Below are positions 42,686 to 61,395 of a stretch of 64,000 nt of DNA, one piece after another. The position numbers and the translations under genes are program-made. This DNA comes from an uncultured Pelagibacteraceae bacterium (GTDB lineage Bacteria > Pseudomonadota > Alphaproteobacteria > Pelagibacterales > Pelagibacteraceae). Under the pieces are notes generated by a model, which was given only the letters and a program-made list of their open reading frames with translations, searched no databases and was not told the DNA's origin. Within the stretch, counting starts at the first letter, position 1. Each line of letters starts with the position of its first letter. The DNA is taken from contig CACARD010000004.1 in assembly GCA_902534735.1 (NCBI GenBank), forward strand, positions 1 to 64,000, in the 5' to 3' direction.

Positions 42686-43606
42686 TTAAGCTATTGATTT
42701 TAAATTTTGATAATTGGTGAAAGTATGAGGTAATTGCTTGCCTTTAATTTCTATCAATGAGTAATTATTTTTATTTTGGAATACTTTTCTTAATAATTGG
42801 TTTGTTAAATGATGTCCACCTTGTGTGCATTTTAAAGATCCTATGATTTTATATCCAGATAAAAATAGATCACCCATGCAATCTAATATTTTATGATTAA
42901 CGAATTCAAGATTATTTCTCAACCCATCTTTATTTAAAATCTTATTATTGTTGACTACAACCGCATTTTCTAAACTACCGCCTTTACCAAGATTTAATTT
43001 TTTTAATTTTTCAATATCTTCATATAAACAAAAAGTTCTTGAGTTAAAAATATTTTCTAAATTGTCTTCAAAAATATTAACTTTATTTTTTTGAGTATCA
43101 ATTATTTTATTTTTATATTTAATTTCAAATTCAATTTCACTTGTAACATTTGAGATATCTAGAGAAATAAATTTTTCAACATCATTAAGACTTACTTTTT
43201 TATTTATTTTAATAATTTTAATTGGTTGATCGCTGAATGTTATTCCAGCATTATTAATACCCTCTACAAAGTTTTTTGCTGAACCATCTAGTATTGGAAC
43301 TTCCTCTGAATTTATTTCAATTACAACATTATCAATTCCTATACCGTAAAGAGCGCCCATTAAATGCTCAATTGTTGAAACTTTTACACCATGTTCGTTG
43401 GATATGGTTGTACAAAGTTTTGTATCTGAGACATTATTATAAAGCGGATATATTAAGTTATTTTTTTTTAAATCTACTCTTTTAAATAAAATTCCTGTAT
43501 TTGGAGCCGCTGGTAAAATATCTAATTTTACATTTTTTCCTGAGTGAATACCAATTCCACTAAGAGATATCTTTTTTGAAATTGTTTTTTGAGTAAGTAT
43601 AGACAC
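42686..43606 (-). CDS. lpxC: UDP-3-O-acyl-N-acetylglucosamine deacetylase
   Basis: QKTISKKISLSGIGIHSGKNVKLDILPA; STIEHLMGAL; NHKILDCMGDL. Confidence 0.95.
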   Translation of the reverse strand: MSILTQKTISKKISLSGIGIHSGKNVKLDILPAAPNTGILFKRVDLKKNNLIYPLYNNVSDTKLCTTISNEHGVKVSTIEHLMGALYGIGIDNVVIEINSEEVPILDGSAKNFVEGINNAGITFSDQPIKIIKINKKVSLNDVEKFISLDISNVTSEIEFEIKYKNKIIDTQKNKVNIFEDNLENIFNSRTFCLYEDIEKLKKLNLGKGGSLENAVVVNNNKILNKDGLRNNLEFVNHKILDCMGDLFLSGYKIIGSLKCTQGGHHLTNQLLRKVFQNKNNYSLIEIKGKQLPHTFTNYQNLKSIA

Positions 43607-43668
43607 GTTAAATTTATATAAAATGTTCCGTAGATTAAATACTCAAGAAATATTACAAGAAAATACCA

Positions 43669-44835
43669 TCATTTATCGAAAAAGTTAAAAAATTTTTCAA
43701 AGATTCCGTATTTTTTATTACTTATTTTTGGTAGTTCATAGTTTATCTTATGATTTTCCAGGCCACATTTGCAGATTTGAACATCTGACTCACTATAATA
43801 ATTAATTGACTTAAAACCAAATCTATCATGCAAATAGAAAGAATTATTTTTAAATAGTTTTGATCCTTCGCCAATCAAGAATAGATCAGAGCCTTTTAAG
43901 ACATTTTTACGATCATTAATATTTGATTTTTTAAATATTAAATCTATGATTTCCTGAACTCTGCACAAAATCACTTTTTTTAACAAATCTACTGAAATAT
44001 TTTTATTAATAATTTCATGAATAACCATCGTATCTTGTGACGTTTTATTTTTGTATGAAAATTCTGTGTCGGTTTTATTAAATGATTTTTTTAGTTTTTC
44101 TGCTTCCACTTCTGAAATCTTAAAAATTTTTGATATATCTATTGTGATATGATGTCCACCTATTGGGATTGTTTCGATTAATTTAAGTTTTTTATTTTCG
44201 AAAAAAAAGATTGAAGATCTTCTCAATCCAACATCTAAAAAGGTGGTTTTGTTTTCATTTAATTTTTTTACATATGATTGAGATTTTATATATGAAGAAC
44301 AAAATATATTTATTATATTTAAATTAAATTTAATAAAATTATCTTTTATTTTCTTTATAAACAATTTTGGAAAACATATTAATTTAAAGTCAACTTTTAA
44401 ATTATTATCTACTATTTTATCTTTAGGAAATTCTTCAAAAATTTTTTCGTCATCTATTATACATTTATCCATTATTATATGGGATAAATAATATTTATCA
44501 TAATTTGATTTAATTATTTGATTTAATTCTAATATTAAAGGCTCATATAATTTATTTATTTTTGAACTTCTATCTAAATTTTTTGTTAATGATATATCTA
44601 TTGTAAATAACTGGTCAGTATCTAAAATTAAAATAATATCTTCGATATGATCAGAAAAATTTTTTTCTGCTTTTTTTATAATTTTATTAATTGCCTCAAA
44701 ATGACTTTGTAAATTCTCGTTTGTGAATACTTTTATTGATTCTGAAAATTTTTCATCTAGGTTATTATCAAAAGATGCAAATCGAATTTTAGATGATCCA
44801 AAATCGATGACACTGAAATAACTGTTTTTACCCAT
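43669..44835 (-). CDS. ftsA: Divergent cell division protein FtsA
   Basis: Actin-fold motifs VIDFGSSKI, FLDVGLRRSSI, GGHHITIDIS; position after ftsQ; C-terminal amphipathic helix GIFEKFFNFFDK. Confidence 0.82.
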   Translation of the reverse strand: MGKNSYFSVIDFGSSKIRFASFDNNLDEKFSESIKVFTNENLQSHFEAINKIIKKAEKNFSDHIEDIILILDTDQLFTIDISLTKNLDRSSKINKLYEPLILELNQIIKSNYDKYYLSHIIMDKCIIDDEKIFEEFPKDKIVDNNLKVDFKLICFPKLFIKKIKDNFIKFNLNIINIFCSSYIKSQSYVKKLNENKTTFLDVGLRRSSIFFFENKKLKLIETIPIGGHHITIDISKIFKISEVEAEKLKKSFNKTDTEFSYKNKTSQDTMVIHEIINKNISVDLLKKVILCRVQEIIDLIFKKSNINDRKNVLKGSDLFLIGEGSKLFKNNSFYLHDRFGFKSINYYSESDVQICKCGLENHKINYELPKISNKKYGIFEKFFNFFDK

Positions 44836-45517
44836 TTCTTAAAATTAATCTATTTTTAATTCTTAAATCAATAATTGTGTTTGAATTTATATTGTTTTTT
44901 GATGTAAATTTTTTGAAAAGATTTATTGCTTCAGAAATGTTTTTATTAGGTAATTGAATTATAATATTATTTGCAAAATATAAGTCCCATCTTTTATTTT
45001 TATGAAAATAGTATCTAGTTATTCCATCTAAATCAATTTTTTGATTTAAAAGTTCTCTTTGAAGAAAAATGTAATCTTCTGGTTTAAATTTTCCAAAAAT
45101 AGTTGGTAATTTTTTTTTATTTGAAATTTGTTTTGCTATTATAAATTTTCCATTTTGACCTACAAAATATTTTTTTTGGTCTAGGTAGGTGATTGCAATT
45201 AAATTAGTTTGTTTAGTTTGAATATTAATAATTGAAGGATATTTTTTTTTGATACTTATGCTTTCAATAAAATTGAGTTTATCAAATTTTTCTAAAAGAA
45301 AATTTTTGTTTACAAAAAAAATATTTTCACCTAATAAAAAACTAGTATTTGATAATATATTGTCATTAATTTCTTTTTTAACATTTTCAACTTTAACTTC
45401 TCTAATCTTAAAAACATTTTTCAAATTACTTATTAAATTATTATTGAAGATTGTTGATATAAATAAAAATGAAACCAAATAAAAATATATTTTTTTTTTA
45501 TTTATTGATTGAAGCAT
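44828..45517 (-). CDS. ftsQ: Cell division protein FtsQ
   Basis: Position between ddl and ftsA; N-terminal TM; POTRA-like region; GQNGKFI. Confidence 0.8.
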   Translation of the reverse strand: MLQSINKKKIYFYLVSFLFISTIFNNNLISNLKNVFKIREVKVENVKKEINDNILSNTSFLLGENIFFVNKNFLLEKFDKLNFIESISIKKKYPSIINIQTKQTNLIAITYLDQKKYFVGQNGKFIIAKQISNKKKLPTIFGKFKPEDYIFLQRELLNQKIDLDGITRYYFHKNKRWDLYFANNIIIQLPNKNISEAINLFKKFTSKNNINSNTIIDLRIKNRLILRNG

Positions 45518-46418
45518 CTTCCAAAATTTTTATTATCAAATTTTTGAAAGTAATGTTATTAAAATTTGCTATTTCAGGCACAAGTGATAGTGAGGTCATT
45601 CCTGGTTGTGTGTTAGTTTCTAATAAATAAAAGGAGTTTTTATAATACCTAAAATCTGATCGTGTAACACCTCTACAATTTAAAATTTTATGTGCTTTTA
45701 GAGCAATTTTTGTTAATTCCTGATATTTTCTTTTTGAAATTTCCACAGGAATTATATGCTCCGTTCTTGCTTTTGGGTTATATTTGGCTTGATAATCATA
45801 AAATTTTCTAGTTGGTCTAAGCTCAATTGCTCCGAGCACTTTATTTTCTAAAATTGCAACTTGTATTTCTCTCCCAGGTATATATTTTTCTAATAAAACC
45901 TCTCCATATTCATTTAGATTTGTAAGAGTTTTCAAAATATTATTTTTGTTACATATAAAAACATTTACACTAGAGCCTTCATTAAGAGGTTTTACAACTA
46001 AAGGAAATCCAATCTTTTTTTGTAAATTATTTATTAATTTCAATTTGTTTATATTATTTCTGTAAGAGAATTTAAGATACTTAGGTGTCAAAATGTTGTT
46101 TTTAATAAATATTTTTTTTGACAGTTCCTTATCTATTGCTAAAGAAGACGATAATACGCCTGAATGAGTATATTTTACTTTTTCAGATTCTAAAATTGCT
46201 TGAATATAGCCATCTTCTCCATATCTCCCATGCAATAAATTTAATACTATATTTGGATTAAAGTTTCTTAATACTTGAACAAATTTACCATCAGGATTTA
46301 CTACCTTAATTTTATATTTTTTATCTTTATTTAATTCTGAGTAAACGCTTTTTGCAGTTTGTATACTAACTTCTTTTTCTTTTGAATATCCACCCGCCAA
46401 AATTAGAATTTTTTTCAT
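45498..46418 (-). CDS. ddl: D-alanine--D-alanine ligase
   Basis: LAGGYSKEKEVSIQTAKSV; LLHGRYGEDGYIQAILE; ETNTQPGMTSLSLVPE. Confidence 0.95.
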   Translation of the reverse strand: MKKILILAGGYSKEKEVSIQTAKSVYSELNKDKKYKIKVVNPDGKFVQVLRNFNPNIVLNLLHGRYGEDGYIQAILESEKVKYTHSGVLSSSLAIDKELSKKIFIKNNILTPKYLKFSYRNNINKLKLINNLQKKIGFPLVVKPLNEGSSVNVFICNKNNILKTLTNLNEYGEVLLEKYIPGREIQVAILENKVLGAIELRPTRKFYDYQAKYNPKARTEHIIPVEISKRKYQELTKIALKAHKILNCRGVTRSDFRYYKNSFYLLETNTQPGMTSLSLVPEIANFNNITFKNLIIKILEDASINK

Positions 46419-47326
46419 TATTCTATAATTTTGATTTCTAAATTAATATTAATCCCAGTTTTATCTTTAACATTTTTTTTTACAAAATTTATTAAAGAGT
46501 TCATTTCTTCAAATGACGCGTTTTTTTTATTAATAAAAAAATTTGAGTGTTTTTTTGATATACTAGCATCTCCAAAACTTATATTTTCTGGAACTGATTC
46601 TTTTATTAGTTCCCAAGCTTTTTTTGTTGTTTGATCGATTGGGTTTTTAAAAGTACTACCGCCAGTCTTAATTTTTGAGGGTTGAGAATTATTTTTTTTT
46701 ATCGCCAATTCTTCCATCAAATTTTTTATTTTACTTTTATTTAATAAATCACCTTTAAAAGTAGCACTTAAAAAAATTAAATTTTCGTTTAATTCTATTT
46801 TTCTATACTGAAATTTAATTTTTTTAGATGGGATAACTTTTATATTTCCCTTTGTATCTATACATTGCAAAGAGATTAATTTGTCTTTAAATTCTGTCCC
46901 AAAACATCCAGAATTCATTTGAAGACCTCCTCCAACCGAACCAGGAATGCAGTACATAAATTCAAAACCACTTATTCCATTCTCTAGTGCAAATTCTGAA
47001 AGTTTTTTTTGTGAGCAAGCTGAGCCTGCTATTATTGTGTCTGGTTTTAATTTTGATAATGTACTAAAATTGTGGCTAAGTTTGATTATTACTCCTTCAT
47101 AAGTATTATCTTTAAATAACACATTTGATCCCATTCCTAATATAAACATTTTTCCTCTATTATTATACAGTTTTAGGAATTCCTTTAATTCTATAAGATT
47201 TTTTGGTTTAAAAAAGATTTTTGATTTACCCCCTATATTAAACCAATTAAGTTTTTTGATATTAGTATTAAAAAACAGATCTGCATTATATTTACTTTTA
47301 AAATCTTCAATATCTTTTAATTCCAT
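46418..47326 (-). CDS. murB: UDP-N-acetylenolpyruvoylglucosamine reductase
   Basis: NTNIKKLNWFNIGGKSKIF; FEFMYCIPGSVGGGLQMNSGCFG; GGSTFKNP. Confidence 0.95.
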   Translation of the reverse strand: MELKDIEDFKSKYNADLFFNTNIKKLNWFNIGGKSKIFFKPKNLIELKEFLKLYNNRGKMFILGMGSNVLFKDNTYEGVIIKLSHNFSTLSKLKPDTIIAGSACSQKKLSEFALENGISGFEFMYCIPGSVGGGLQMNSGCFGTEFKDKLISLQCIDTKGNIKVIPSKKIKFQYRKIELNENLIFLSATFKGDLLNKSKIKNLMEELAIKKNNSQPSKIKTGGSTFKNPIDQTTKKAWELIKESVPENISFGDASISKKHSNFFINKKNASFEEMNSLINFVKKNVKDKTGININLEIKIIE

Positions 47327-47327
47327 A

Positions 47328-48710
47328 TCAATTAAGATTTCTTACCCAATTTGTTATAGATCCAGCACCCATAGCAATAAAAATTTTATTTCCGAATGCA
47401 ATATTTTTAGTAATTTTTTTTAAATCTATTTCATTTTTAAGCATTATCAGATTAACTTTAGAATTTTTTGCAATTAATTTTGCAAATGAAGTGTATGAAA
47501 ATCCTAATTTTATAGTTTCACTAGCTTTATAAATTGGACAAAGTAAAACTGTGTTTGCATTTTTAAAGCATTTAGAAAATTCAATTTTTAAATTTTTTAC
47601 TCTTGAAATTCTATGCGGTTGAAAAATACAAACTATTTCTTCTTTATTATATACTTTACTGACACCATCTAACACTGATGAAATTTCAGTTGGATGATGA
47701 GCGTAGTCATCGAAAAATGGCACTTTATTAATTTCAAATAAGAAATTAAATCTTCTCTGGACTCCGTTAAAGTTTTTGAGACCTAATTTAATTATTTTAT
47801 CTGATACACCAATTGAAAAAGCTACTGCCAATGCAGATGTTGCATTTTTAATATTATGCAAACCTAACAAAGGTATTGAAATATTTTTTATAATTTTTGT
47901 TTTGCCCGGTATTTTTATTTTAATATTAAATTTTGAATAATATTTATTCTGAATTATATTGAAAATATGAAAATTTGATTTCTTATTTAAACCAAATGTA
48001 TAGTAATTGTTATTTTTAATTTTTGGTAAAATATTTTTTACATTTTTGTCATCTAAACACAGAAAAGCCTTTCCGAAAGATGGTGTTTTATCAATAAATT
48101 CTATGAATTTATTTTTTAAATTTTTCATAGTTCTGTAATAATCCAAGTGTTCATTGTCAATGTTGGTTATTATTGAATAATTAAAAGGTATTTGAAGAAA
48201 ACTTCCATCCGACTCATCTGATTCAACTAAACTCCAATCACTTTTTCCTAATTTTGCCGAACTTCCTATTGAATTCAAAACACCGCCGTTAATTATTGTC
48301 GGATCTAATTTTGCATAATTCAAAATATTTGACAAAATTGATGTTGTTGTTGTTTTGCCGTGTGATCCTGTCACAACAATATTTTTCATTAAAGAAACTA
48401 TATGACCTAACAATTCTCCTCTTTTATATATTGGAAGGTTTAATTTTTCAGCATGTCTGTATTCTGGATTTGATTTTTTTATAGCTGATGAAACGACTAA
48501 TACAGTACAATTTTTTATATTTTGCTTATTATGATTTAAATAAATTGGAATTTTTCTTTTTCTTAGTAAATTAAGATTTTTATTATCTGATTTGTCACTT
48601 CCTTGTATTTTAAAGCCTAAACTATCCATTATTAATGCTAAACCACTCATACCAATACCACCAATTCCAACAAAATGAATTAGTTCAGTTTTTCCGATAT
48701 TAATTTTCAT
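47328..48710 (-). CDS. murC: UDP-N-acetylmuramate--L-alanine ligase
   Basis: HFVGIGGIGMSGLA; VTGSHGKTTTTS; FDDYAHHPTEI. Confidence 0.97.
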   Translation of the reverse strand: MKINIGKTELIHFVGIGGIGMSGLALIMDSLGFKIQGSDKSDNKNLNLLRKRKIPIYLNHNKQNIKNCTVLVVSSAIKKSNPEYRHAEKLNLPIYKRGELLGHIVSLMKNIVVTGSHGKTTTTSILSNILNYAKLDPTIINGGVLNSIGSSAKLGKSDWSLVESDESDGSFLQIPFNYSIITNIDNEHLDYYRTMKNLKNKFIEFIDKTPSFGKAFLCLDDKNVKNILPKIKNNNYYTFGLNKKSNFHIFNIIQNKYYSKFNIKIKIPGKTKIIKNISIPLLGLHNIKNATSALAVAFSIGVSDKIIKLGLKNFNGVQRRFNFLFEINKVPFFDDYAHHPTEISSVLDGVSKVYNKEEIVCIFQPHRISRVKNLKIEFSKCFKNANTVLLCPIYKASETIKLGFSYTSFAKLIAKNSKVNLIMLKNEIDLKKITKNIAFGNKIFIAMGAGSITNWVRNLN

Positions 48711-49776
48711 CTATAATTTCTATAATCTTTTTGTTTATATTATTCCAAGTATTTTTTTTAGTAATTTCCTCAAGATTTTTAAATTTTTCGTTGTAATTTT
48801 TATATTCGTTAAATATTTCAAATATCATCTTTGAAAATTTTTTAAATTCGAATTCCTTTTGTTTTATTAACCAACAACAATTTTTTTTATAGTAAAATTC
48901 TGAATTATAGAATTGGTGATTATCTCTTGCAGATGGTAGAGGTATTGAAATAAACGGTATGTTTAAGAATGAAAGTTCACTTAGTGTGCTTGCACCTCCT
49001 CTGGTAATTGCTAGATCTATACCATTGTAGAGTTCATGACTATCATTGGTAAATTCAATAAATTTGTAGCTTATATTTGATTTTTCATATTTATTTTTTA
49101 TTGAAGATAAATTATTAATATTTGATATTTGTTGTATAACTTCGAAATTTCGTTTTTTTGAAATTTCAATAATTAATTCAGTAATATTTTCGTCAAAAAA
49201 CGATGCACCCTGACTGCCACCGATGATGAGAATTTTTTTTATTTCCTTTTTTAAATTAATTTTATTTTTTTCTAAGTTATATATTTCTTTTTTTAAAATA
49301 GGTTTGACTATAACTTTTTTAGAATTATATTTTATTGGAAAGTTTCTTAAGTTTTCATCGTAACAAATTATCTTTGTTGAAAATTTTAAAGCAAAGCGGT
49401 TAGATCTACCTAAAACACTATTAGGCTCAAATAAGAAAACTTTTTTTTTTAATATAAATGCAGCTAAGCTAAATGGAAATGTCATGTACCCACCAGTACT
49501 AATAACAATATTTGTCTTATTATTTTTTAAAAATCTAATAGATTGAAAAATGTTTAGAAAATATTTTAAAATATTTATTGGAAGTAAATAAGGTTTTAAA
49601 AATAAATTAGGTACATCTATTAATTCATATTTAAATTTTTCAGTATTTATATATTTACTTCCTCTCAAATCAGATACCATTTTTACAGAAAATTTATTTT
49701 TCAAATGTTCAAACAAAGAGGTAGATGGTACTACGTGGCCACCAGAACCACCTGTTACTATAAGTATATTTTTCAT
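48700..49776 (-). CDS. murG: UDP-GlcNAc:lipid I N-acetylglucosaminyltransferase
   Basis: TGGSGGHVVPS; ILIIGGSQGASFFDE; ITRGGASTLSEL. Confidence 0.96.
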   Translation of the reverse strand: MKNILIVTGGSGGHVVPSTSLFEHLKNKFSVKMVSDLRGSKYINTEKFKYELIDVPNLFLKPYLLPINILKYFLNIFQSIRFLKNNKTNIVISTGGYMTFPFSLAAFILKKKVFLFEPNSVLGRSNRFALKFSTKIICYDENLRNFPIKYNSKKVIVKPILKKEIYNLEKNKINLKKEIKKILIIGGSQGASFFDENITELIIEISKKRNFEVIQQISNINNLSSIKNKYEKSNISYKFIEFTNDSHELYNGIDLAITRGGASTLSELSFLNIPFISIPLPSARDNHQFYNSEFYYKKNCCWLIKQKEFEFKKFSKMIFEIFNEYKNYNEKFKNLEEITKKNTWNNINKKIIEIIDEN

Positions 49777-49777
49777 A

Positions 49778-50887
49778 CTAATTTAATTTTCTCTTCGTCA
49801 AATTTAATATTATTCCAGTTAAAATTGATGTTCCAACTATTGAAGAACCACCATAACTAATAAATGGCATTGTCATTCCTGTAGTAGGAAGCATTCTTAT
49901 GTTTACGCCAATATGAATAAAAGTTTGCAATAGTATTATTGAAATACTTCCAACTAATATAAGTTTAAAATTATTATTTTTTGTAAAATTTATTTTTTTT
50001 AAAACTCTATAAGATAGTATTAAATAAAGTAATATTATACCTATTAAGATAATGACTCCAAATTCTTCTGCAATTACAGAAATTATATAATCTGTATGTG
50101 CTTCTGGTATTCTTGAATTTAAAGTTCCTTCACCTATTCCTTTACCAAAAAAACTTCCACTGGATATTGCATCGCTTGCTTTATCAGCCTGGTAATTATT
50201 ACCGCTAGAATTATCTAAAAATGACATTAATCTTATTCTTATGTATTCAAACTTTGGCACCAAAAAGACTAAAAATAAAGTTAATGAACCCACAGCTAAT
50301 AATGAAATTGCGAAAATTAATAAATTTATTCCTGAAACAAAAATAATGGCAAGCCAAACAGATATTATTAATAATGTTTGTCCTAAGTCTGGTTGAGATA
50401 AGAGTAAAATTATAATTGGCACTAAAACGACTGAACTCAAGAGATATTTTATATAAAGGTTTTTTTTTTCTAATGATATTATTAGTGAAATAACAATAAC
50501 AAAAAAAGGTTTTAAAGTTTCAATAGGTTGAAACCTAGGTAATGAGCCAACATCTAACCATCTCTTTGACCCTTTGACCTCCACTCCTATTAAGGGAACT
50601 AAGAATAAACTTATAAATGTGATAACAAATAGTACGACTGATAACCTAATTAAAATTTTTTGATCTAGTAGAGATAAAAATAAAATTAAACATATTCCTA
50701 TTAAAACAAAAATTAAATGTTTTAAAAAAAAATAGTAAGAATTTGTGTTTAATTTATCTGATGCAATTATTGAAGTTGAAACTAAAGAAAAAAATAATCC
50801 TAGTGAAAATAATAGACTTATTATCAAAAAAATTGTTTTATCGATGTTTTTCCACCAATCATAAAATGTATCAAAATATTTGTTCAT
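49778..50887 (-). CDS. ftsW: Lipid II polymerase / division protein FtsW
   Basis: Polytopic SEDS protein; KGSKRWLDVG; PEAHTDYIISVIAEEFG; PTTGMTMPFISYGGSS. Confidence 0.95.
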   Translation of the reverse strand: MNKYFDTFYDWWKNIDKTIFLIISLLFSLGLFFSLVSTSIIASDKLNTNSYYFFLKHLIFVLIGICLILFLSLLDQKILIRLSVVLFVITFISLFLVPLIGVEVKGSKRWLDVGSLPRFQPIETLKPFFVIVISLIISLEKKNLYIKYLLSSVVLVPIIILLLSQPDLGQTLLIISVWLAIIFVSGINLLIFAISLLAVGSLTLFLVFLVPKFEYIRIRLMSFLDNSSGNNYQADKASDAISSGSFFGKGIGEGTLNSRIPEAHTDYIISVIAEEFGVIILIGIILLYLILSYRVLKKINFTKNNNFKLILVGSISIILLQTFIHIGVNIRMLPTTGMTMPFISYGGSSIVGTSILTGIILNLTKRKLN

Positions 50888-52173
50888 TCAATTGGTAAAT
50901 ATCTTTTAATTAACATATTGAATTGTCTACCTCTTTCTTCAAAATTTTTGTATTGATCAAATGATGCAGCCGACGGGCTAAATAAAACTGTAACTTTTGT
51001 TCTTATCTCCTTAAGGTTTGGAATTTTTTTAAGAATATTTCTCAGATCTTTTGATAGATTAACTTTAATTTTATTTTTAAATAGTTTTAGGAAAACTTGT
51101 CTATCTTTCCCGTAAATATACGCTTCTAAATTTTTAAAATACTTTTTATTTAAATTAAATTTGTCACCCTTTTTAAATAATCCTCCCAAAATCCATATAA
51201 TTTTTTCATTAGATTCTAAAAATGGAACAGTAGAGGATAATGTTGTTGACTTTGAGTCGTTTATTATTTTTAAATATTTTGATTTATGGATTACTTCCTG
51301 TCTAAATTTCAAAGGTTTAAATTTATTAATAGTTTTTATTACAGTTTTTAAATTAAGTTTCATATGTTTTGATAGCTCAAATAAAAAATTTAAATTTTGA
51401 AAATTTGTTGAATTTTTAAAATTATCATTACTTAATTTATTTTTTAAATATGCATACTTATTTTTACTTACATATATTATTTTGGATTTTATATTTTTAG
51501 TTCTTAATAAGTCTTTCAATAAATTAGTGTTTGTTATTATTGCTACATCATTTTCGTTTTGTCTTATTACACATTTTAATTTTGATAATACATAATTTTT
51601 CATTGTATTATGCCTTTCTAAATGATCTGGAGAAATATTGATGATTATAGAAAATTTTGATTTGAAATACCTACTATAAGCTAGCTGATAAGAAGAAGCC
51701 TCAATAACAAAGATAGTATTTTTGGTAACTCTTTTTTCCTCTAAAATAGGATTTCCAATATTTCCAGTTAGCCTAGTATCATAATGATGTTTCTTTAAAA
51801 TATCATAAAGTAACTTACTTGTGGTTGACTTTCCGTTCGTACCAGTGATCGTGATTGTTAAAACTTCAGGGTTAAATTTATAAAAAATATCAAAATCAGT
51901 AATAACTTTTTTTTGGTTCTTTTTTAAATAATTTGATAACTGGCATTTATTTATATTAATACCAGGACTTATAACTATATAATCAAAATTATTATTTAAT
52001 AATTTTGATTTAGAAATAAAAAATTTTTTATATTTATTTTTAATTTTTTTCTTATCATCATCGAAAATAAAACACCTATTTTTCTTATTTAAATATTTTA
52101 ATGATGAAATTCCAGATTTTCCAAAACCATAAATTAAAAAATTTTTACTTAACGTTTCATTTTTTAATTTCAT
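50884..52173 (-). CDS. murD: UDP-N-acetylmuramoylalanine--D-glutamate ligase
   Basis: YGFGKSGISSL; ITGTNGKSTTSKLL; NISPDHLERH; INDSKSTT. Confidence 0.95.
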   Translation of the reverse strand: MKLKNETLSKNFLIYGFGKSGISSLKYLNKKNRCFIFDDDKKKIKNKYKKFFISKSKLLNNNFDYIVISPGININKCQLSNYLKKNQKKVITDFDIFYKFNPEVLTITITGTNGKSTTSKLLYDILKKHHYDTRLTGNIGNPILEEKRVTKNTIFVIEASSYQLAYSRYFKSKFSIIINISPDHLERHNTMKNYVLSKLKCVIRQNENDVAIITNTNLLKDLLRTKNIKSKIIYVSKNKYAYLKNKLSNDNFKNSTNFQNLNFLFELSKHMKLNLKTVIKTINKFKPLKFRQEVIHKSKYLKIINDSKSTTLSSTVPFLESNEKIIWILGGLFKKGDKFNLNKKYFKNLEAYIYGKDRQVFLKLFKNKIKVNLSKDLRNILKKIPNLKEIRTKVTVLFSPSAASFDQYKNFEERGRQFNMLIKRYLPIE

Positions 52174-53258
52174 TATCTAAGTTTCAAAGTAGCTAATCCA
52201 ATCATTGCTAGAATAATAGAAATTATCCAAAATCTAATTACAACCGTTGACTCTGGCCATCCTTTTTTTTCAAAATGATGGTGTATTGGAGCCATTTTAA
52301 ATATTCTTTTACCTGTTAATTTATAGGAAATAACTTGAACTATTACAGAAACAGCTTCTAAAACAAACAATCCGCCTGTTATTGCTAACACAATTTCGTG
52401 CTTAGTTATTATACCAACCGCTCCCAGTGAACCACCTAATGATAAAGATCCAGTGTCTCCCATAAAAATTTTTGCTGGAGGTGCATTAAACCATAAAAAA
52501 CCTAAACAAGCTCCAATTATTGATCCACAAAAAATCGAAGCTTCTCCTACGCCTTCTATGTATGCGATCTGAAGATAATCAGAAAAAATTATGTTACCAG
52601 AGACGTAACTAATAAATGCAAAACAAGCGGCAACTAACATAACAGGAACTGTTGCTAATCCGTCTAAACCATCTGTTAAATTAACTGCATTTGAAGCTCC
52701 AACTAATATGAACATATAAAAAGGTATAAAAAACCAGCCAAGATTGATTACTAAGTTTTTGAAAAAAGGAAAATATAGATTGTTTATTTGATCAGAATTA
52801 CTTGTGATATAAAGTATAAATATACCAATCAAGGCTAAAATAATTTGTAGAGAGAACTTAAATTTAGAAGAAATTCCATGCGAACTTTTTAACTTTATTT
52901 TTTTATAATCGTCATAAGCTCCCAATAAGCCAAAAGAAGCTGCAATAAATATTAAAAACCAATTGTAAGTATTTGATAAGTCACCCCATAGCAATACTCC
53001 TGAAAAAACACCTAGTAATATTATTAGCCCTCCCATTGTAGGTGTTCCAATTTTTCTAATTATATGATCGCTAGGTCCATCTTCTCTGATTGGATTATGA
53101 ATCTGTTTTGAAGAAAAAAAATTAATTAATGGGTTTCCAACTAAAAAAACAACAACCATAGCTGTAAACATAGAAAGACCAGTTCTTACTGTTAAATATT
53201 TAAAAACATTCAAAAAACTAAATTGATCTACTAGAATTGAAAAAAGTTCAAACAACAT
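52173..53258 (-). CDS. mraY: Phospho-N-acetylmuramoyl-pentapeptide transferase
   Basis: GTPTMGGLIIL; NAVNLTDGLDGLA; FMGDTGSLSLGG; APIHHHFEKKGWPE. Confidence 0.97.
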   Translation of the reverse strand: MLFELFSILVDQFSFLNVFKYLTVRTGLSMFTAMVVVFLVGNPLINFFSSKQIHNPIREDGPSDHIIRKIGTPTMGGLIILLGVFSGVLLWGDLSNTYNWFLIFIAASFGLLGAYDDYKKIKLKSSHGISSKFKFSLQIILALIGIFILYITSNSDQINNLYFPFFKNLVINLGWFFIPFYMFILVGASNAVNLTDGLDGLATVPVMLVAACFAFISYVSGNIIFSDYLQIAYIEGVGEASIFCGSIIGACLGFLWFNAPPAKIFMGDTGSLSLGGSLGAVGIITKHEIVLAITGGLFVLEAVSVIVQVISYKLTGKRIFKMAPIHHHFEKKGWPESTVVIRFWIISIILAMIGLATLKLR

Positions 53259-56086
53259 TAAGATTTTGATCCAATTTGTTTGGTTATTTGATTTAGTCCT
53301 GTAGAATTTGAGCCCTTTATCATTAAAAAATCACCATTATTTAAATCATTTTTTATTATATTAAGAATTTCACTAGTTGATTTAAGTATTTTTCCTCTTT
53401 TTTGTGTTCTAATTTTGTTAAATGTTTCTGTGATATAATTCCCATAAACAAACAACTTTTTAAACTTTGCCTTATTGATACCTTTTGCAGCTTCAATATG
53501 AAGTTTTTTTGAAAATTTTCCTAATTCTAACATGTCACCTAGTAGCATAAATTTTTTATTTGGATTTACTTTTAAATTATCAAATTTCTTAATTGAGAAA
53601 TTAAGAGATAATGGATTTGAGTTATAACTTTCATCTATTATATTAACTTTTTTTGAGCCGACAGTTAATTTTTTTATATTTCCTCTACCACTTGGTATTT
53701 TATAATTAGAAAAAAAGTTACTTTTTATTTTATCAATGATATTTAAACTTTTACAAACTGCTATGGAAGCCAATATATTATCCAAATAAGGTAATAAGTT
53801 ATTATTAATTTTAAAATTAAAAGTTTTAGAAGCTACGTCAATATAAATGATATAAGATTTCGTAGATTTTTTTAATTTTGATAATCTAATATTAGAATTT
53901 TTATGTTTACCAAAAGAAATGATATTTAAATTATTCTTGTTTGCTAAATTTGAAAAAAAATTAAAAAATTTATCATCTTTATTCAATACAATTGTACCAT
54001 TTTTTCTTATGTTGAAAATAATCTCTGATTTGGCTTTAGCTATATCCAATAAAGATTTAAAATTTTTGGCGTGCGCATAACTAATATTTGTAATAACTCC
54101 AACGTCTGGTTTAATTATTTTTGATAAATAGTCTATTTCTCCCTTTTTATCCATTCCAATTTCAAATATTCCATAAGTCGTATCCTTATTTAAATTTATT
54201 AATGAAATCGGTAAACCAAATTTATTATTGAATGAATTTTTTGAATATGTTGTGGAATAATTTTTTTGAAGACATTGTCCTAACAATTCTTTCAGCGAAG
54301 TTTTGCCTGAAGATCCTGTTATTGCAACTTGAGATGCATTAGAAGAAATTCTTATCTTATGTGAAAATTTAATTAATAATTCTAGAGTACTTTTAACATT
54401 AATCTTTTTTTTACTATCATTTTTGTTATTTTGAAGTATTGCTAATTTTGCTCCATTTTTTAGAGCTTCGTCTGCAAAATCATTTCCATTAAAAGATTTC
54501 CCCTTAATTCCTAGGAAAATTTTACCTTTATTTTGTTCTTTCGAATTAGTGCTAATTTTTAAATTTTTTATTCTATCTAATTTTTTGTCATTTATAATTT
54601 CTTTAAGCATATTTAATTTCCAATCATTTGATAAAATTCTATTTTTTAAAATTATTGATTTTTTTATATTATCTTTGTCAGAAAATTTATTTTTCTTAAT
54701 ATATTCTTGAGTGTTTTCATGCCCCTTTCCTGCAATAATTAAAATCTCATCAGACTTACTGTTTAAAATTGCTTTTTTTATAGCTAATTTTCTTGATGGT
54801 ATTTCAATCATTTTAGATGGTAAAATTGATTTCTTAATACTTGCTCTGATATTTTCTGGATTTTCACTTCTAGGATTATCGTCTGTAAGATAAATATAAT
54901 TACATAGTTTGTTGGCAATTTTGCCCATTATTGGTCTTTTTTCTTTATCTCTTTCACCGCCACATCCAAATACAATATTAATTTTTCTTAAACCAAATTG
55001 TTCTTTAATATTTTCTATACTTGTTTTAAGAGCCTCTGGAGTATGAGCATAGTCTAAAATAAAAATTGAATTATCTTTTGTTGTTCCGATTATCTCTAGC
55101 CTTCCTTTTGCGGGTTTAATATACTTAAGTTTTTTAACAATATCATCAATTTTTAGATTACTTTTAATTGCTGCTGCAATAGCCATCATCAAATTCTTAA
55201 TTTGTATCTTTCCAATTAGGCTTGTTTTAAATTGGTATTCCTTGTTTTGAAAAGTAAACTTTATATGTTGGTAGTTATTTAAAATTTTAATTGAATTAAT
55301 TTTTAAATGACTATCTGATGTACCAATTTTTAATAAATTAAATTTTTTTCTTTTGGCTATTTTTTTAAAAATTTGTGAATATTTTAAATCATTATCAAAT
55401 ATCAAATTTCCATTTTTATTTGTCAATTCATTAAATAAAATTAATTTTGAATTAAAATAATTTTTATAATTTTTGTGATAATCTAAATGATCTCTACTTA
55501 AATTAGTGAATATAGATGTGCTAAATTTAATACCATGTAATCTTTTTTGATGAAGGCCATGACTTGATGCTTCTAAAATTACATTTTCAATTTTTTTATT
55601 TTTTAAATTTGCAAGTATTTTATTAATTGTAATAGCATCAACAGTTGTATTATTAAGTTTTAAGCTAACACCATTCGATTTAACGCCTAGAGTTCCAATT
55701 GAGGCTACTCTTTTTTTATTAAGTTTTAATATCTGGTAATAAAAATTGACTATAGATGATTTACCGTTTGTACCAGTTACAGCAATTATATTATTTGGTT
55801 TTTTATTATAATATTTATTTGCAAAACTTGATAAGGCTAATCTAGGATCGCTTACTTTTATGTATAATACACCTTTATTGATTCCAGTTTTAAATTTATT
55901 TGATACAATTATTCGGGCTCCTCTTTTAATTGCATCATTTATGAAATTATTTCCATTAAATTTACTACCCTGTATTGCAAAAAATATATAATTTTTTTTT
56001 ATTTTTTTTGAATTAAATTCAAATCCATTAAAACTTTTATTATTAAAATCTTTTTTAAGATTTTTAAAAAAGCTTTTTAATATCAT
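53258..56086 (-). CDS. murEF: Fused MurE-MurF (bifunctional Mur ligase)
   Basis: 942 aa with two Mur ligase modules: N-terminal VTGTNGKSS...TDDNPRSE (MurE) and C-terminal ITGSSGKTSLKELL...DESYNSNP (MurF). Confidence 0.93.
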   Translation of the reverse strand: MILKSFFKNLKKDFNNKSFNGFEFNSKKIKKNYIFFAIQGSKFNGNNFINDAIKRGARIIVSNKFKTGINKGVLYIKVSDPRLALSSFANKYYNKKPNNIIAVTGTNGKSSIVNFYYQILKLNKKRVASIGTLGVKSNGVSLKLNNTTVDAITINKILANLKNKKIENVILEASSHGLHQKRLHGIKFSTSIFTNLSRDHLDYHKNYKNYFNSKLILFNELTNKNGNLIFDNDLKYSQIFKKIAKRKKFNLLKIGTSDSHLKINSIKILNNYQHIKFTFQNKEYQFKTSLIGKIQIKNLMMAIAAAIKSNLKIDDIVKKLKYIKPAKGRLEIIGTTKDNSIFILDYAHTPEALKTSIENIKEQFGLRKINIVFGCGGERDKEKRPIMGKIANKLCNYIYLTDDNPRSENPENIRASIKKSILPSKMIEIPSRKLAIKKAILNSKSDEILIIAGKGHENTQEYIKKNKFSDKDNIKKSIILKNRILSNDWKLNMLKEIINDKKLDRIKNLKISTNSKEQNKGKIFLGIKGKSFNGNDFADEALKNGAKLAILQNNKNDSKKKINVKSTLELLIKFSHKIRISSNASQVAITGSSGKTSLKELLGQCLQKNYSTTYSKNSFNNKFGLPISLINLNKDTTYGIFEIGMDKKGEIDYLSKIIKPDVGVITNISYAHAKNFKSLLDIAKAKSEIIFNIRKNGTIVLNKDDKFFNFFSNLANKNNLNIISFGKHKNSNIRLSKLKKSTKSYIIYIDVASKTFNFKINNNLLPYLDNILASIAVCKSLNIIDKIKSNFFSNYKIPSGRGNIKKLTVGSKKVNIIDESYNSNPLSLNFSIKKFDNLKVNPNKKFMLLGDMLELGKFSKKLHIEAAKGINKAKFKKLFVYGNYITETFNKIRTQKRGKILKSTSEILNIIKNDLNNGDFLMIKGSNSTGLNQITKQIGSKS

Positions 56087-56097
56087 TATAGAATTTC

Positions 56098-57729
56098 TTA
56101 ATATTTTATGGCTAAAATAGGCCCGATTTTTTCAATTATATTTTTGGCAACCTCAACAGAAGTCCAGCCAGCAGTATTAAAAGGTGTACCTATTATCTTC
56201 TTTTTTTTACCATCATTATATTCATAAATATAAGTTTCACTCAATTTTGGTTCATCTAACAAAACAATTAAAACATATTTTGGAGAAGATATTGGAAAAA
56301 TTGAAGCAAAAGTATTTATTTTTTTTTTAGAATATTTACCCTTTATAGATTTTTGAGCTGTTCCTGTTTTTCCAGCGATTTCATAACCAGCAATATTTGC
56401 TAAATTAGCTGTGCCCTGTTCGGATGTTACAATTTTTCTCAAAATTTCATTAATTTTATTAGAATTTTCCTGTGTAATTATTTGCTCACCTTTTTTTAAA
56501 TTTTTCTCTTTTTTAATTAAAGTTGGTTTTATTTTATATCCACCATTTGCAATTATTGCATAGGCTTTTGCAAGTTGAAGAGGTGTGGTTGTTATACCAT
56601 GACCATATGCTGATGTAGCTAATTTACATTTTCCCCATTTAAACGGAATTGGATTTCCAACTTCTTCAATATCAAATTGTATTTTATTTAATAAATCTAA
56701 ATTTTCTAGAAAATCTTTAAAATTTTCTAAACCGACTTTCTGAGCAATTTTGATTGAACCAATATTTCCAGATCTAATTAATATTTCTTCTGCAGTAAGA
56801 CTAGATGGAATATCCATATCATATTCAGAGATTGACCTTCCCGCACATTTTATTTTTTTTGGTAAATTTTTAAAAAGAGTATCTTCTTGAATAACATTTT
56901 GTTGAAGTCCAGCAGCCAATGTAAATGTTTTAAAAACTGATCCAAGTTCATAAACACCTTTAGTGGATCTGTTTATAAATTTTTTATCAGAAATATCGTC
57001 TCTTTTATTTAAATCAAAATCTGGTATAGAAACCATCGATATAATCTCACCGCTGTTAACATTCATTAAAATAGCTGTACTTCCATAACTATCAAAAATT
57101 TCTTGAAATCTTATCAATTCCTCTCTTATCAAATATTGTATTTCAGTGTCTAAAGAAAGATTTAATGGCTTGTTTGAAGTTGTTAATTCATAGTCAAAAG
57201 ATTTTTCTATACCAGACACACCATTGTTATCTGTATCAATCTGTCCCAATATATGACTGAAAAGATTACCGTTGGGATAAACACGAGCAATATTTTCTTC
57301 CTCCCTAAACGATTTTTCTCCCAGTAATTTTATTTTTTCTAGTTTTGCTGGAGATATTTTCTTTTTGACATAAAAAAACTTTTTTCCGATGATTTCCTTT
57401 TCAAAATTCTTGTCAGGAAATATTAATTTTAAGGAAATTAATAATTTTTCTTTGTTAATTACTTGATTTGGATTTATGCCTAAATTGGTCACACGCACTG
57501 TTTTAGCAATAATATTTCCATTTCTATCCATGATAGAGGCTCTATATTTTTCTTTTTCTTTTAAAGTTTGAGTTTGGTTTGTTTTTTTAAATCCTAGATA
57601 GATAGTTTTAGACGTAAAAATTATTGTAATTATAAAAAAAATAAAGAAAATAAATGATATACGTTCAAAGGATATTTTTAAATTTGATCTATTTGCTTCA
57701 AATTTGAAATTTTCTTCAATATTATTCAT
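56098..57729 (-). CDS. ftsI: Peptidoglycan transpeptidase FtsI (PBP3)
   Basis: ELGSVFKTFT (SxxK), RSGNIGSIK (SxN), AGKTGTAQK (KTG). Confidence 0.95.
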   Translation of the reverse strand: MNNIEENFKFEANRSNLKISFERISFIFFIFFIITIIFTSKTIYLGFKKTNQTQTLKEKEKYRASIMDRNGNIIAKTVRVTNLGINPNQVINKEKLLISLKLIFPDKNFEKEIIGKKFFYVKKKISPAKLEKIKLLGEKSFREEENIARVYPNGNLFSHILGQIDTDNNGVSGIEKSFDYELTTSNKPLNLSLDTEIQYLIREELIRFQEIFDSYGSTAILMNVNSGEIISMVSIPDFDLNKRDDISDKKFINRSTKGVYELGSVFKTFTLAAGLQQNVIQEDTLFKNLPKKIKCAGRSISEYDMDIPSSLTAEEILIRSGNIGSIKIAQKVGLENFKDFLENLDLLNKIQFDIEEVGNPIPFKWGKCKLATSAYGHGITTTPLQLAKAYAIIANGGYKIKPTLIKKEKNLKKGEQIITQENSNKINEILRKIVTSEQGTANLANIAGYEIAGKTGTAQKSIKGKYSKKKINTFASIFPISSPKYVLIVLLDEPKLSETYIYEYNDGKKKKIIGTPFNTAGWTSVEVAKNIIEKIGPILAIKY

Positions 57730-57997
57730 TATTAAATTTAAAAATTTTTAAATCTGTAATTTTTTTTTTTTTTAATTCTTTATCAAAATATATTTTTGAA
57801 TATTCCATTAATTTATTTGGTGATGTAAGATAGTTGTAATCAAATAAAACTAACTCATAAATATCATTGAGAGCCCTGATATCTTCTTGAGTTTCAAAAA
57901 TTTGTTTATCAAGTTTTTTTGTCGAATTTTTTGTGAAAGCTGTTGAAATTATAAGAATAATAATTGGGATAAATAAAAGAATTTTTTTATGCATCAA
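57722..57997 (-). CDS. ftsL: FtsL-like small bitopic protein
   Basis: 91 aa, N-terminal TM, between rsmH and ftsI. Confidence 0.65.
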   Translation of the reverse strand: MMHKKILLFIPIIILIISTAFTKNSTKKLDKQIFETQEDIRALNDIYELVLFDYNYLTSPNKLMEYSKIYFDKELKKKKITDLKIFKFNNE

Positions 57998-58979
57998 AGT
58001 TCAAATTTTCTATATCTTTTAAGTATTTAAAATTACTAACAAATTTTTTAAAGTTACATCCATTCTCTAATTTGTATGCAAATCTAAGTTTTGCTGACCT
58101 TGAGGGGGGATTAATATTAATCTCACTGGATGATGGAGTTATTGGTTTTTTTTTGGTTAAATTAAAATACTTTTTAGTTGAAATATTTTTTGGTAAATAT
58201 CTAGAAGAATTTTTTACTTCTGAGTATTCTTTAAAAAAAAACTTTACTATTTTATCCTCGATTGAATGAAAAGTAACAACTGCTATTGCTCCACCAATTG
58301 GCAAAATATTATAGGCTTTTATTAAACCATATATCAGTTCGGTTATCTCTTTATTTACAAAAATTCTAAGAGCTTGAAAAACTTTAGTGGATTTGTTTTT
58401 TCCACTTTTCTTTTTTTTTACACTTTCAATGATTTCTACTAAATTTTCAGTTTTAATTTTTTTATTTTTTCTTAATTGTATTATTTTTTTTGAAATTGGT
58501 TTTGCATATTTTTCATCACCGAAATACTTGAAAATTTTATAGAGACTTTGTTGGCTCATTTTTGAAATTACATCATCACAAGAAAAATCATTTAATCCCA
58601 TTCTCATGTCAAGTTTGCCTTTACTATTAAAAGATATGCCTCTACTTAGATCAGAAATCTGATTTAATGAATATCCCAGATCAAAAATAATTGCTTTAAC
58701 ATTATCTTCTTTTATTTGATCAATATCCGAAAATTTTTTGTTATAAAATTTAAATCTTTTTTTATACTTTGTGTGGAATTGATTAGCTATAATATTGACG
58801 GAATTATCTCTATCTAATGCTACTATATTGTTTAAGTTATTCTCTAATATTTTTTTTGAATAACCACCTGCACCAAATGTACAATCGATAAATGTGCCAC
58901 CATAAAGAGGGGAAATAATACTAACTAGTTCGTTTAGTAATACTGGAAAATGTTTTTCCAGATTTATGGTGGCATTCAT
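57987..58979 (-). CDS. rsmH: 16S rRNA (cytosine-1402-N4) methyltransferase
   Basis: HFPVLLNELVSIISPLYGGTFIDCTFGAGGYSKKIL; RGISFNSKGKLDMRMG; VTFHSIEDKIVK. Confidence 0.96.
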   Translation of the reverse strand: MNATINLEKHFPVLLNELVSIISPLYGGTFIDCTFGAGGYSKKILENNLNNIVALDRDNSVNIIANQFHTKYKKRFKFYNKKFSDIDQIKEDNVKAIIFDLGYSLNQISDLSRGISFNSKGKLDMRMGLNDFSCDDVISKMSQQSLYKIFKYFGDEKYAKPISKKIIQLRKNKKIKTENLVEIIESVKKKKSGKNKSTKVFQALRIFVNKEITELIYGLIKAYNILPIGGAIAVVTFHSIEDKIVKFFFKEYSEVKNSSRYLPKNISTKKYFNLTKKKPITPSSSEININPPSRSAKLRFAYKLENGCNFKKFVSNFKYLKDIENLNFDA

Positions 58980-58997: not shown

Positions 58998-60443
58998 TTA
59001 ATTCTTTTGTCTTCTCAAAAATGCTGGAATTTCTAAATCTTCTTCTTCCTCAGAGTTTATATCTTGTGGTGAAGTTGATAACTCCTCGTTAGCATCTGAA
59101 TTAAATAGCTCTGGGGTATCATCATCACTCAACTCAAAATTCTCCAAACCATTATTTTCAGTTACTTGCTCATCTACATTGCTTTCAAATTCGGAGTTTA
59201 CTGAGCTAGCTACAGGTGCATCAGTTTGCTCTAAATCGTCGCCATTTATAGAGCTTGATGCCTCATTTGCATAATTAGTATCTATACTTTTAGAACTCAA
59301 TTCTTCATTTTTCTCTACTTCCTCTATTTTAAGAGCGTTAGCTCCATTAGTAATAATTGAATTATTATTTGTAAATTGGAAAGAATGAGTTGATGCAGAA
59401 TTTGAAAACTCAGAATAACCTGGATTTCTATTTTGAATTCTATGGACCATGTTAATTACTGATTTAGGCTCAGGTTGTTGTCCATCTAATGCAGTAGCAA
59501 CGATTGAAACTCTCATTAATCCATCCAAACTATCATCCGTTATAGCTCCTATAATTAATTCTGCTTCTGGATCGACTTCGGCTCTTACTTTATTAACAGC
59601 TTCATCTACTTCAAATAATTTTAAATCTTTACCTCCAGTGATATTAACCAAAAGTCCTTTTGCCCCTTTTAAAGAATAATCATCAATCAATGGATTATTA
59701 ATTGCTGACTCAGCAGCTTTGACAGCTCTTCCTTCTCCTTCAGCTTGACCTGTGCCCATCATAGCTTTGCCCATTGAACTCATAACAGTTTCAACATCAG
59801 CAAAATCAAGATTTATAAGCCCTGGTCTAACCATTAAATCAGTTATACTTTGAACACCATGAAGTAAAACATCATTTGATAAAGCAAAAGATTCTTCAAA
59901 AGTTGTTTGTTCACTTGCAATCTTGAATAAATTTTGATTTGGAACAACTATAATGGTATCAACATGTTTTCGAAGTTCTTCTAAGCCTTGTTGCGCTTTT
60001 CTCATTCTTGAAGGGCCCTCATATAAGAAAGGTAGAGTTATAACCCCGACTGTTAATATATTGAGTTCTTTTGCAGCTCGAGCAATTACATGAGCAGATC
60101 CGGTTCCAGTTCCACCACCCATTCCGGCTGTAATGAAAACCATATTTGCACCCTGCAATATATTTACAATTTCATTTAAAGACTCGTCTGCAGCAGCTTG
60201 ACCTATATCTAGTTTTGCACCTGCTCCTAGTCCTTTAGTTAAATTTAATCCCATTTGTATTTTTGTTTGTGCCTTACTTAATCTTAAATCTTGAGCATCT
60301 GTATTAACTGCAATAAACTCAACGCCCTGAAGGCCGGCATCAATCATTCCATTGATTGCATTTCCACCCGCTCCTCCTACTCCCAATACTAGAATTCTAG
60401 GTTTCAGTTCTTTTATATCTGGTGTTTTAAAGTTTATTGTCAT
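58998..60443 (-). CDS. ftsZ: Cell division protein FtsZ (start corrected to 60443)
   Basis: [32 protein letters not shown]-terminal peptide [15 protein letters not shown] extension upstream overlaps mraZ. Confidence 0.97.
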
Positions 60444-60456
60444 ATTTTTCCCCTTT

Positions 60457-60912
60457 TTAGTTATTAAATTGCTTTTCCCATTTAAGACTTGCTCGATTAA
60501 TATTTGATTTTTTCCTAGCGTTTGCCCTAAATTTTTCAAAATGTGTTGGTTCCCAAATTTGAAATGTTTTACCTTGACCAACAAATAACATGCTATTTTT
60601 AATTCTTGCATGTTTTAGTAATTTTGTCGTTATTTGAACTCTGCCTTCACTATCAAATTGTAAATTTGTACTTTCCGATAATATAGATGTTGCAAAATAA
60701 TCTTTCTTTTCTTCAAACGGATTTAATGAGTCTATTGCATTAGATATTTTTTCAATTCGATCTTGCGGCCATGCTTCAATACATAGATTGTTAAATGATG
60801 GATAACAAATTATTCCATTGTAGCCTATGTTTGATAAATATGATCTATATGATGCAGGCACTGAAACCCTTCCCTTTTTGTCCAATTTGTTTTCGTAGGT
60901 TGATAAAAACAT
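60457..60912 (-). CDS. mraZ: Transcriptional regulator MraZ
   Basis: [39 protein letters not shown]. Confidence 0.95.
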
Positions 60913-60932: not shown

Positions 60933-60956
60933 TGGGTTTTTATGGGATATTATGGG
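60933..60956 (-). promoter_or_regulatory. Three TGGG repeats at 10-bp spacing upstream of mraZ (MraZ-operator-like)
   Basis: TGGG at 60933, 60943 and 60953 on the plus strand: tgggtttttatgggatattatggg. Confidence 0.75.
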
Positions 60957-60975
60957 TTTTATTTGTTAGCGTCAA
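60947..60975 (-). promoter_or_regulatory. Predicted sigma70 promoter of mraZ/dcw
   Basis: Minus strand TTGACG (60975-60970), 17-nt spacer, TAATAT (60952-60947). Confidence 0.7.
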
Positions 60976-61038
60976 TAGCAAATATTATGTAACTCTTGAG
61001 TAAAAATTTAATAATTATTTCGATTTATTTTAATGAAT

Positions 61039-61395
61039 TGCCAGATAAACTATAAGCCGGGTTCTGTCTTTTAAACTTATCATTTATCTAGGCTTTAAAT
61101 CACTTTAAAGCTCAAGCAACTAACCCTGATGACTAGCCAAAGACTGCTTTTAGTTATTTCTAACAGTGTCATCTCTACTCAGTCTTGCTCCCAGTGGGGT
61201 TTTCCATGCGCTAGTTGTTACCAACTTAGCCGGTGTGCTCTTACCACACCTTTTCACCCTTGCCTTGATAAGGCGGTTTATTTTCTGTGGCACTATCCCT
61301 AGGGTTTCCCCTGCCAGCCGTTAACTGGCACTGTGTCTTTGTAGAGCCCGGACTTTCCTCTTTATAAATTAAAGCGATAAGTCATTTATCTGGCA
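61039..61395 (-). ncRNA. rnpB: RNase P RNA (bacterial type A)
   Basis: Minus strand contains gaggaaagtccgggctc, aggggaaaccctagggatagtgccacagaaa, gtaagagcacaccg and gacagaacccggcttat; perfect 11-bp terminal helix TGCCAGATAAA/TTTATCTGGCA. Confidence 0.95.

Follow-up and report, generated by a model that had tools for sequence, protein, structure and literature searches.

Described MraZ operators

MraZ is among the most widespread division regulators, with an operator that has been defined from few species. In E. coli the protein is stated, in a passage of PMC7761207, to bind repeats 5' of its own gene and to repress the dcw operon. In E. coli K-12 the repeats read AGTGGGAAAT-TGTGGGGCAA-AGTGGG on the coding strand and lie 8 nt downstream of the −10 sequence TAAACT. 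Purified MraZ of Burkholderia cenocepacia binds a fragment with four repeats spaced at 10 bp (PMC7761207), and loss of MraZ in Mycoplasma genitalium raises the mRNA of mraW and ftsZ (log2 2.34 for ftsZ; PMC8475190). The Mollicute MraZ box is AAAGTG(T/G), with a cluster arranged as mraZ-mraW-MG_223-ftsZ (PMC8475190, PMC5138195). For the Alphaproteobacteria, the literature searched yielded neither a published MraZ operator nor any report of MraZ binding, footprints or mapped start sites, an earlier mention of such an operator being possible.

Here, three TGGG repeats in the mraZ promoter of the window (the whole stretch of DNA analysed, 64,000 nucleotides) were compared with these systems. It is considered very probable that the repeats are an MraZ operator through which the protein would repress its own operon.

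Loci and criteria

The DNA upstream of mraZ was collected for the genus from whole genomes of relatives and from 80 public contigs. All of these carry the label Pelagibacteraceae, and most come from single cells. The 110 genus loci with sufficient upstream DNA represent 102 distinct promoter sequences, with a few genomes being present twice. From the record labels and the small, AT-rich genomes we infer that the order sampled corresponds to the HIMB59 clade, also known as SAR11 subclade V (PMC10308909). The comparison set comprised 30 non-alphaproteobacterial Pseudomonadota loci and 70 alphaproteobacterial loci from outside the genus, the latter made up of 10 from a sister family, one from another genus of the same family, three from a family designated f9 and 56 others. 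Gene starts were anchored by tblastn and an array was called when at least 11 of 12 bases matched over three copies, with this one cut-off applied to all sets.

The mraZ promoter and its TGGG boxes

The sequence-only reading had reported three TGGG repeats in register with a minus-strand TTGACG-17-TAATAT promoter in front of mraZ, and each of these elements was found at the coordinates given for it (Table 1). The naming of the gene 3' of this promoter is supported by both Pfam and NCBIfam, with PF02381 matching in two stretches and the cut-off of the curated MraZ equivalog NF001477 being passed, which places the protein in the MraZ family. Its loop motifs are intact, with DKKGR at residues 11–15 (DxKGR) and DSEGR in the second domain (DxxGR). 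Residues D11, K13 and R15 and the D, G and R of the second domain are invariant or nearly so in both the alphaproteobacterial and the non-alphaproteobacterial sets. The PDB matches were exclusively solved MraZ structures. A search of a phage collection for MraZ returned distant matches alone (20–29% identity), mostly from unannotated, bacterial-looking records.

Table 1. Features of the mraZ promoter and the downstream division and cell-wall genes, in order of transcription; positions are those of the window.
Feature	Position	Strand	Remarks
rnpB (RNase P RNA, class A)	61037..61393	-	just 5' of the promoter; Rfam RF00010, 288.6 bits
−35 hexamer TTGACG	60970..60975	-	TTGAC invariant, its start 19 nt before box 1 in 110/110 genus loci
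Box 1 (predicted MraZ), TGGG (CCCA in mraZ sense)	60953..60956	+	the first box that transcription meets; lies between the −35 and the −10
−10 hexamer TAATAT	60947..60952	-	T1, A2 and T6 invariant in 45 thinned sequences
Box 2 (predicted MraZ), TGGG	60943..60946	+	abuts the downstream edge of the −10
Box 3 (predicted MraZ), TGGG	60933..60936	+	approximately +5 to +8, given an inferred start near 60940
mraZ, 151 aa	60457..60912	-	Pfam PF02381, 3.4e-23; NCBIfam NF001477, 183.9 bits (cut-off 162)
ftsZ	58998..60443	-	TIGR00065, 381 bits (cut-off 295); 13 bp after mraZ; sole genomic copy
rsmH (mraW), third gene	57987..58979	-	TIGR00006; usually right after mraZ in other Pseudomonadota
Remaining co-directional dcw cluster after rsmH	42686..57997	-	ORFs and NCBIfam, some scores below cut-off

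In the sense of mraZ, the −35 hexamer is followed by 17 nt, the −10 hexamer and a further 34 nt before the ATG at 60912, and the array reads CCCA-TAATAT-CCCA-TAAAAA-CCCA. The site has three direct repeats with a 10-bp period 5' of mraZ. The 6-nt spacer of boxes 1 and 2 is exactly the −10 hexamer. An overlap of the repeats with the −10 had also been claimed; none of the tetramers themselves overlaps the hexamer. A scan for the sigma-70 consensus on its own was not significant, with five promoter-like sites against 4.2 expected. The mraZ promoter is credible because of its conservation instead, as sigma-70 type hexamers at 17-bp spacing are retained across the 110 loci in TTGAC, in the TTGAC-box distance and in the −10 bases T1, A2 and T6.

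Conservation and uniqueness of the array

An alignment of the promoter across relatives, suggested as a check in the sequence-only reading, found all 12 box bases kept in all 110 genus loci, together with the distance from TTGAC to box 1, and the distance from box 1 to the ATG varying between 43 and 61 nt. After thinning at 80% identity, the invariant columns of the 45 remaining sequences were TTGAC, one A, CCCATA...T-CCCA and CCCA, with many flanking columns down at 33–60% consensus. Since the boxes and their fixed distance from TTGAC are kept while the flanks drift, the TGGG array is real and under strong selection, and the alignment thus points to operator and promoter forming one rigid unit. 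CcrM sites (GANTC) at the −35 were also considered and rejected, TTGACTC being present in just 11 of the 110 genus loci.

The pattern TGGG-N6-TGGG-N6-TGGG is present once in the window and in none of 100 shuffles, and it is also the only copy in the 1.15-Mb genome, where the reversed control pattern gave none. Exactly one triplet was found in 48 of 61 genus genomes, none in 13 and two in no genome, with the reversed control in 0/61. The genomes lacking the triplet are mostly incomplete; of the ten genus genomes that are at least 90% complete, nine carry it. Many of the sampled genomes are closely related single-cell genomes, which would favour reading the repeat as a chance occurrence in an AT-rich promoter or as mere shared ancestry of near-identical sequences. 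Such a reading was ruled out, and is regarded as vanishingly improbable, on the basis of the shuffles, the single copy per genome, the invariance of the boxes in the thinned sequences and the arrays found class-wide, including those of the sister family, where MraZ identity is 42–47%.

Orientation and half-site across the Alphaproteobacteria

Period-10 arrays on the strand opposite to the coding strand of mraZ (CCCA in its sense) were detected at 168 of the 180 alphaproteobacterial loci (58/70 outside the genus), and same-strand TGGG arrays of this period at 0/180. The same-strand type was found in E. coli and at 12 of the 30 non-alphaproteobacterial Pseudomonadota loci, a set with no CCCA arrays (0/30). 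Most of the remaining 18 loci of that set have weaker GTGG repeats, also on the coding strand. Periods from 6 to 16 other than 10 gave 0–2 matches each, in either orientation, among the alphaproteobacterial loci. The inversion of the array relative to E. coli is class-wide across the Alphaproteobacteria sampled.

The arrays upstream of mraZ at 44 of the 56 alphaproteobacterial loci that belong neither to the HIMB59 order nor to family f9 share with this site the inverted orientation, the 10-bp period, a TTGAC 5' of the array and a placement of the boxes around the −10 region, though not an identical one. They differ in mostly having four to five boxes, as against three in the genus (the sister family has four to five), in a TTGAC/box register of mostly 6–7 mod 10 as against 9 mod 10, and in having rsmH as the second gene. 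The base 5' of TGGG is G in 92% of non-alphaproteobacterial boxes, and 80% of the boxes from other Alphaproteobacteria have A there. In the genus it is A or T and never G (0%), so that the boxes read (A/T)TGGG and have no GTG-containing half-site. Speaking against the operator reading, a few alphaproteobacterial mraZ loci, among them L144 and L167 (both of family f59) and L161, have no recognisable box array; in the 0.9-Mb genomes of L144 and L167 rsmH is also absent beside mraZ.

The promoter Pmra (mraZ1p) of E. coli resembles this site in its TGGG direct repeats with a 10-bp period, which stand just before mraZ where the dcw cluster begins, and the E. coli protein shares the DxKGR and DxxGR loop motifs. 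However, the repeats of Pmra are on the coding strand, downstream of the −10, with the sequence GTGGG, whereas those described here are on the opposite strand, around the −10, with the sequence (A/T)TGGG; the second gene is rsmH in E. coli and ftsZ here. The two arrays had been said to have the same geometry, which is accurate for the 10-bp period and incorrect for the strand, the position relative to the −10 and the half-site. PmraBc of B. cenocepacia has 7-nt repeats with 3-nt spacers, giving the same 10-bp period, and its site overlaps the start site (PMC7761207), but its four repeats are downstream of the −10 and contain a GTG motif, while here the boxes flank the −10. The Mollicute system has in common a small genome and a single MraZ site (predicted here) controlling an ftsZ-containing cluster, and differs in its box sequence and in the presence of mraW and another gene between mraZ and ftsZ.

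Recognition by MraZ in the inverted orientation is an extrapolation, because the boxes are inverted and one half-site base differs from the proven sites. As (A/T)TGGG is unlike the GTGG of those sites, the repeats might bind another regulator and precede mraZ by coincidence. This is thought very unlikely given that the sole triplet of the genome precedes mraZ and that throughout the class mraZ has a 10-bp array in front of it, as it does, with the array inverted, in other Pseudomonadota. The comparative genomics strongly backs the MraZ operator proposed in the sequence-only reading, and the array most probably represents an inverted type of MraZ operator characteristic of the Alphaproteobacteria.

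G-quadruplex (G4) motifs have been described in the mraZ promoters of several bacteria (PMC11796246), and the G-runs of this promoter could act as such a structure, a role that the paper claims for the one in Staphylococcus aureus. Four G-tracts on one strand with loops of at most 7 nt are indeed present in 8/10 sister-family and 27/56 other alphaproteobacterial loci. However, there are only three G-tracts at the site, the four-tract motif is found in 2/110 genus and 0/30 non-alphaproteobacterial loci, and conservation extends to the exact 10-bp spacing and to the T that precedes GGG. The G-quadruplex was rejected for this site and is given a negligible probability. In some species, what has been described as a G4 motif before mraZ (PMC11796246) may be no more than an array of MraZ boxes in which the loops are 7 nt long.

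Position of ftsZ and the dcw cluster

That ftsZ is the gene following mraZ, as had been proposed, was borne out (Table 1), and no ftsZ is present between ftsA and lpxC (43606–43669 of the window). After rsmH the order is an ftsL-like ORF, ftsI, a fused murE-murF, mraY, murD, ftsW, murG, murC, murB, ddl, ftsQ, ftsA and lpxC, with every gene on the minus strand. The fused MurE/F, MraY, FtsW, Ddl, FtsA, LpxC and the ftsI-type PBP are backed by NCBIfam (some below cut-off), with ftsL, murD, murG, murC, murB and ftsQ named by position and sequence alone. The murE-murF fusion (53258–56086, 942 aa) scores 869 bits against the bifunctional model NF008896, below its cut-off of 1023, and FtsA (43669–44835) has diverged strongly, with 76.5 bits against TIGR01174 (cut-off 175.85).

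Among the 111 genus loci, ftsZ is directly after mraZ in 107; in three more the distance, measured in the same way, is 187 nt, and in one the contig ends. It is also behind mraZ in nine of ten sister-family loci (the tenth contig ends) and in the second genus of the family. The adjacency is found at 120/120 testable loci of the order and also at 3/3 loci of family f9. Elsewhere among the sampled loci rsmH is next after mraZ, with three loci having neither gene there. In several independent sister-family genomes (L149, L154, L156, G057 and G058) a contig ends approximately 1.15–1.2 kb downstream of mraZ, inside ftsZ, so that one and the same spot is either where assembly breaks or where the sequence varies. 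An RsmH tree grouped f1, f2 and f9 (96/81). This fits a single relocation of ftsZ but is a weak indication of it, because all three are AT-rich with skewed composition. With ftsZ moved from behind ftsA to behind mraZ, ftsZ would be the first gene to come under the operator, and direct control of ftsZ by the predicted operator is plausible in view of the 13-bp gap and the adjacency throughout the order.

Proposed regulation

By analogy with E. coli, B. cenocepacia and M. genitalium, MraZ would bind the three boxes along one helix face. With a transcription start near 60940, the boxes flank the −10 and extend to approximately +8, and because of this placement bound MraZ would exclude RNA polymerase from the −10 and start region and so repress its own operon. 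This operon would comprise mraZ, ftsZ and then the remaining division and cell-wall genes, with co-transcription presumed as far as lpxC, and the resulting negative feedback loop would set the levels of MraZ and FtsZ jointly. The box positions in E. coli and in the HIMB59-type promoter would both suit a repressor, with the HIMB59-type MraZ covering the −10 itself.

The sign of regulation is not simply transferable from E. coli, because the orientation and position of the operator differ. MraZ at the boxes could instead activate the promoter or reshape the DNA for polymerase, or its effect could depend on the number of bound subunits. A passage of PMC8475190 cites higher FtsZ upon overexpression of MraZ in M. 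gallisepticum. These alternatives are nonetheless judged unlikely, as the boxes adjoin the −10 and box 3 is beyond the probable start, which is the position of a repressor. A wider regulon was also sought: four other two-box matches were found in the genome, all inside ORFs and not clearly above the count of three for the reversed-pattern control. The predicted regulon is therefore the mraZ operon alone, and MraZ probably controls one operon in this genome.

Implications

Autoregulation by MraZ is already known, and what is apparently new is the inversion of the operator and its extent across the class, together with the altered half-site and the relocation of ftsZ. On balance we favour, with moderate confidence, the combined view that the alphaproteobacterial MraZ operator is inverted relative to that of E. 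coli, built around the −10 and changed in its half-site, and that ftsZ has moved behind mraZ in the HIMB59 lineage and in one other family, making autorepression a one-operator feedback switch for FtsZ. If the class-wide inverted operator is true, repression would be independent of the direction of the array, and the inverted arrays would be a natural experiment on how the MraZ ring reads direct repeats. These marine bacteria have streamlined genomes and few regulators, and division control in them would be unusually simple and testable if mraZ and ftsZ are governed by the one operator predicted here.
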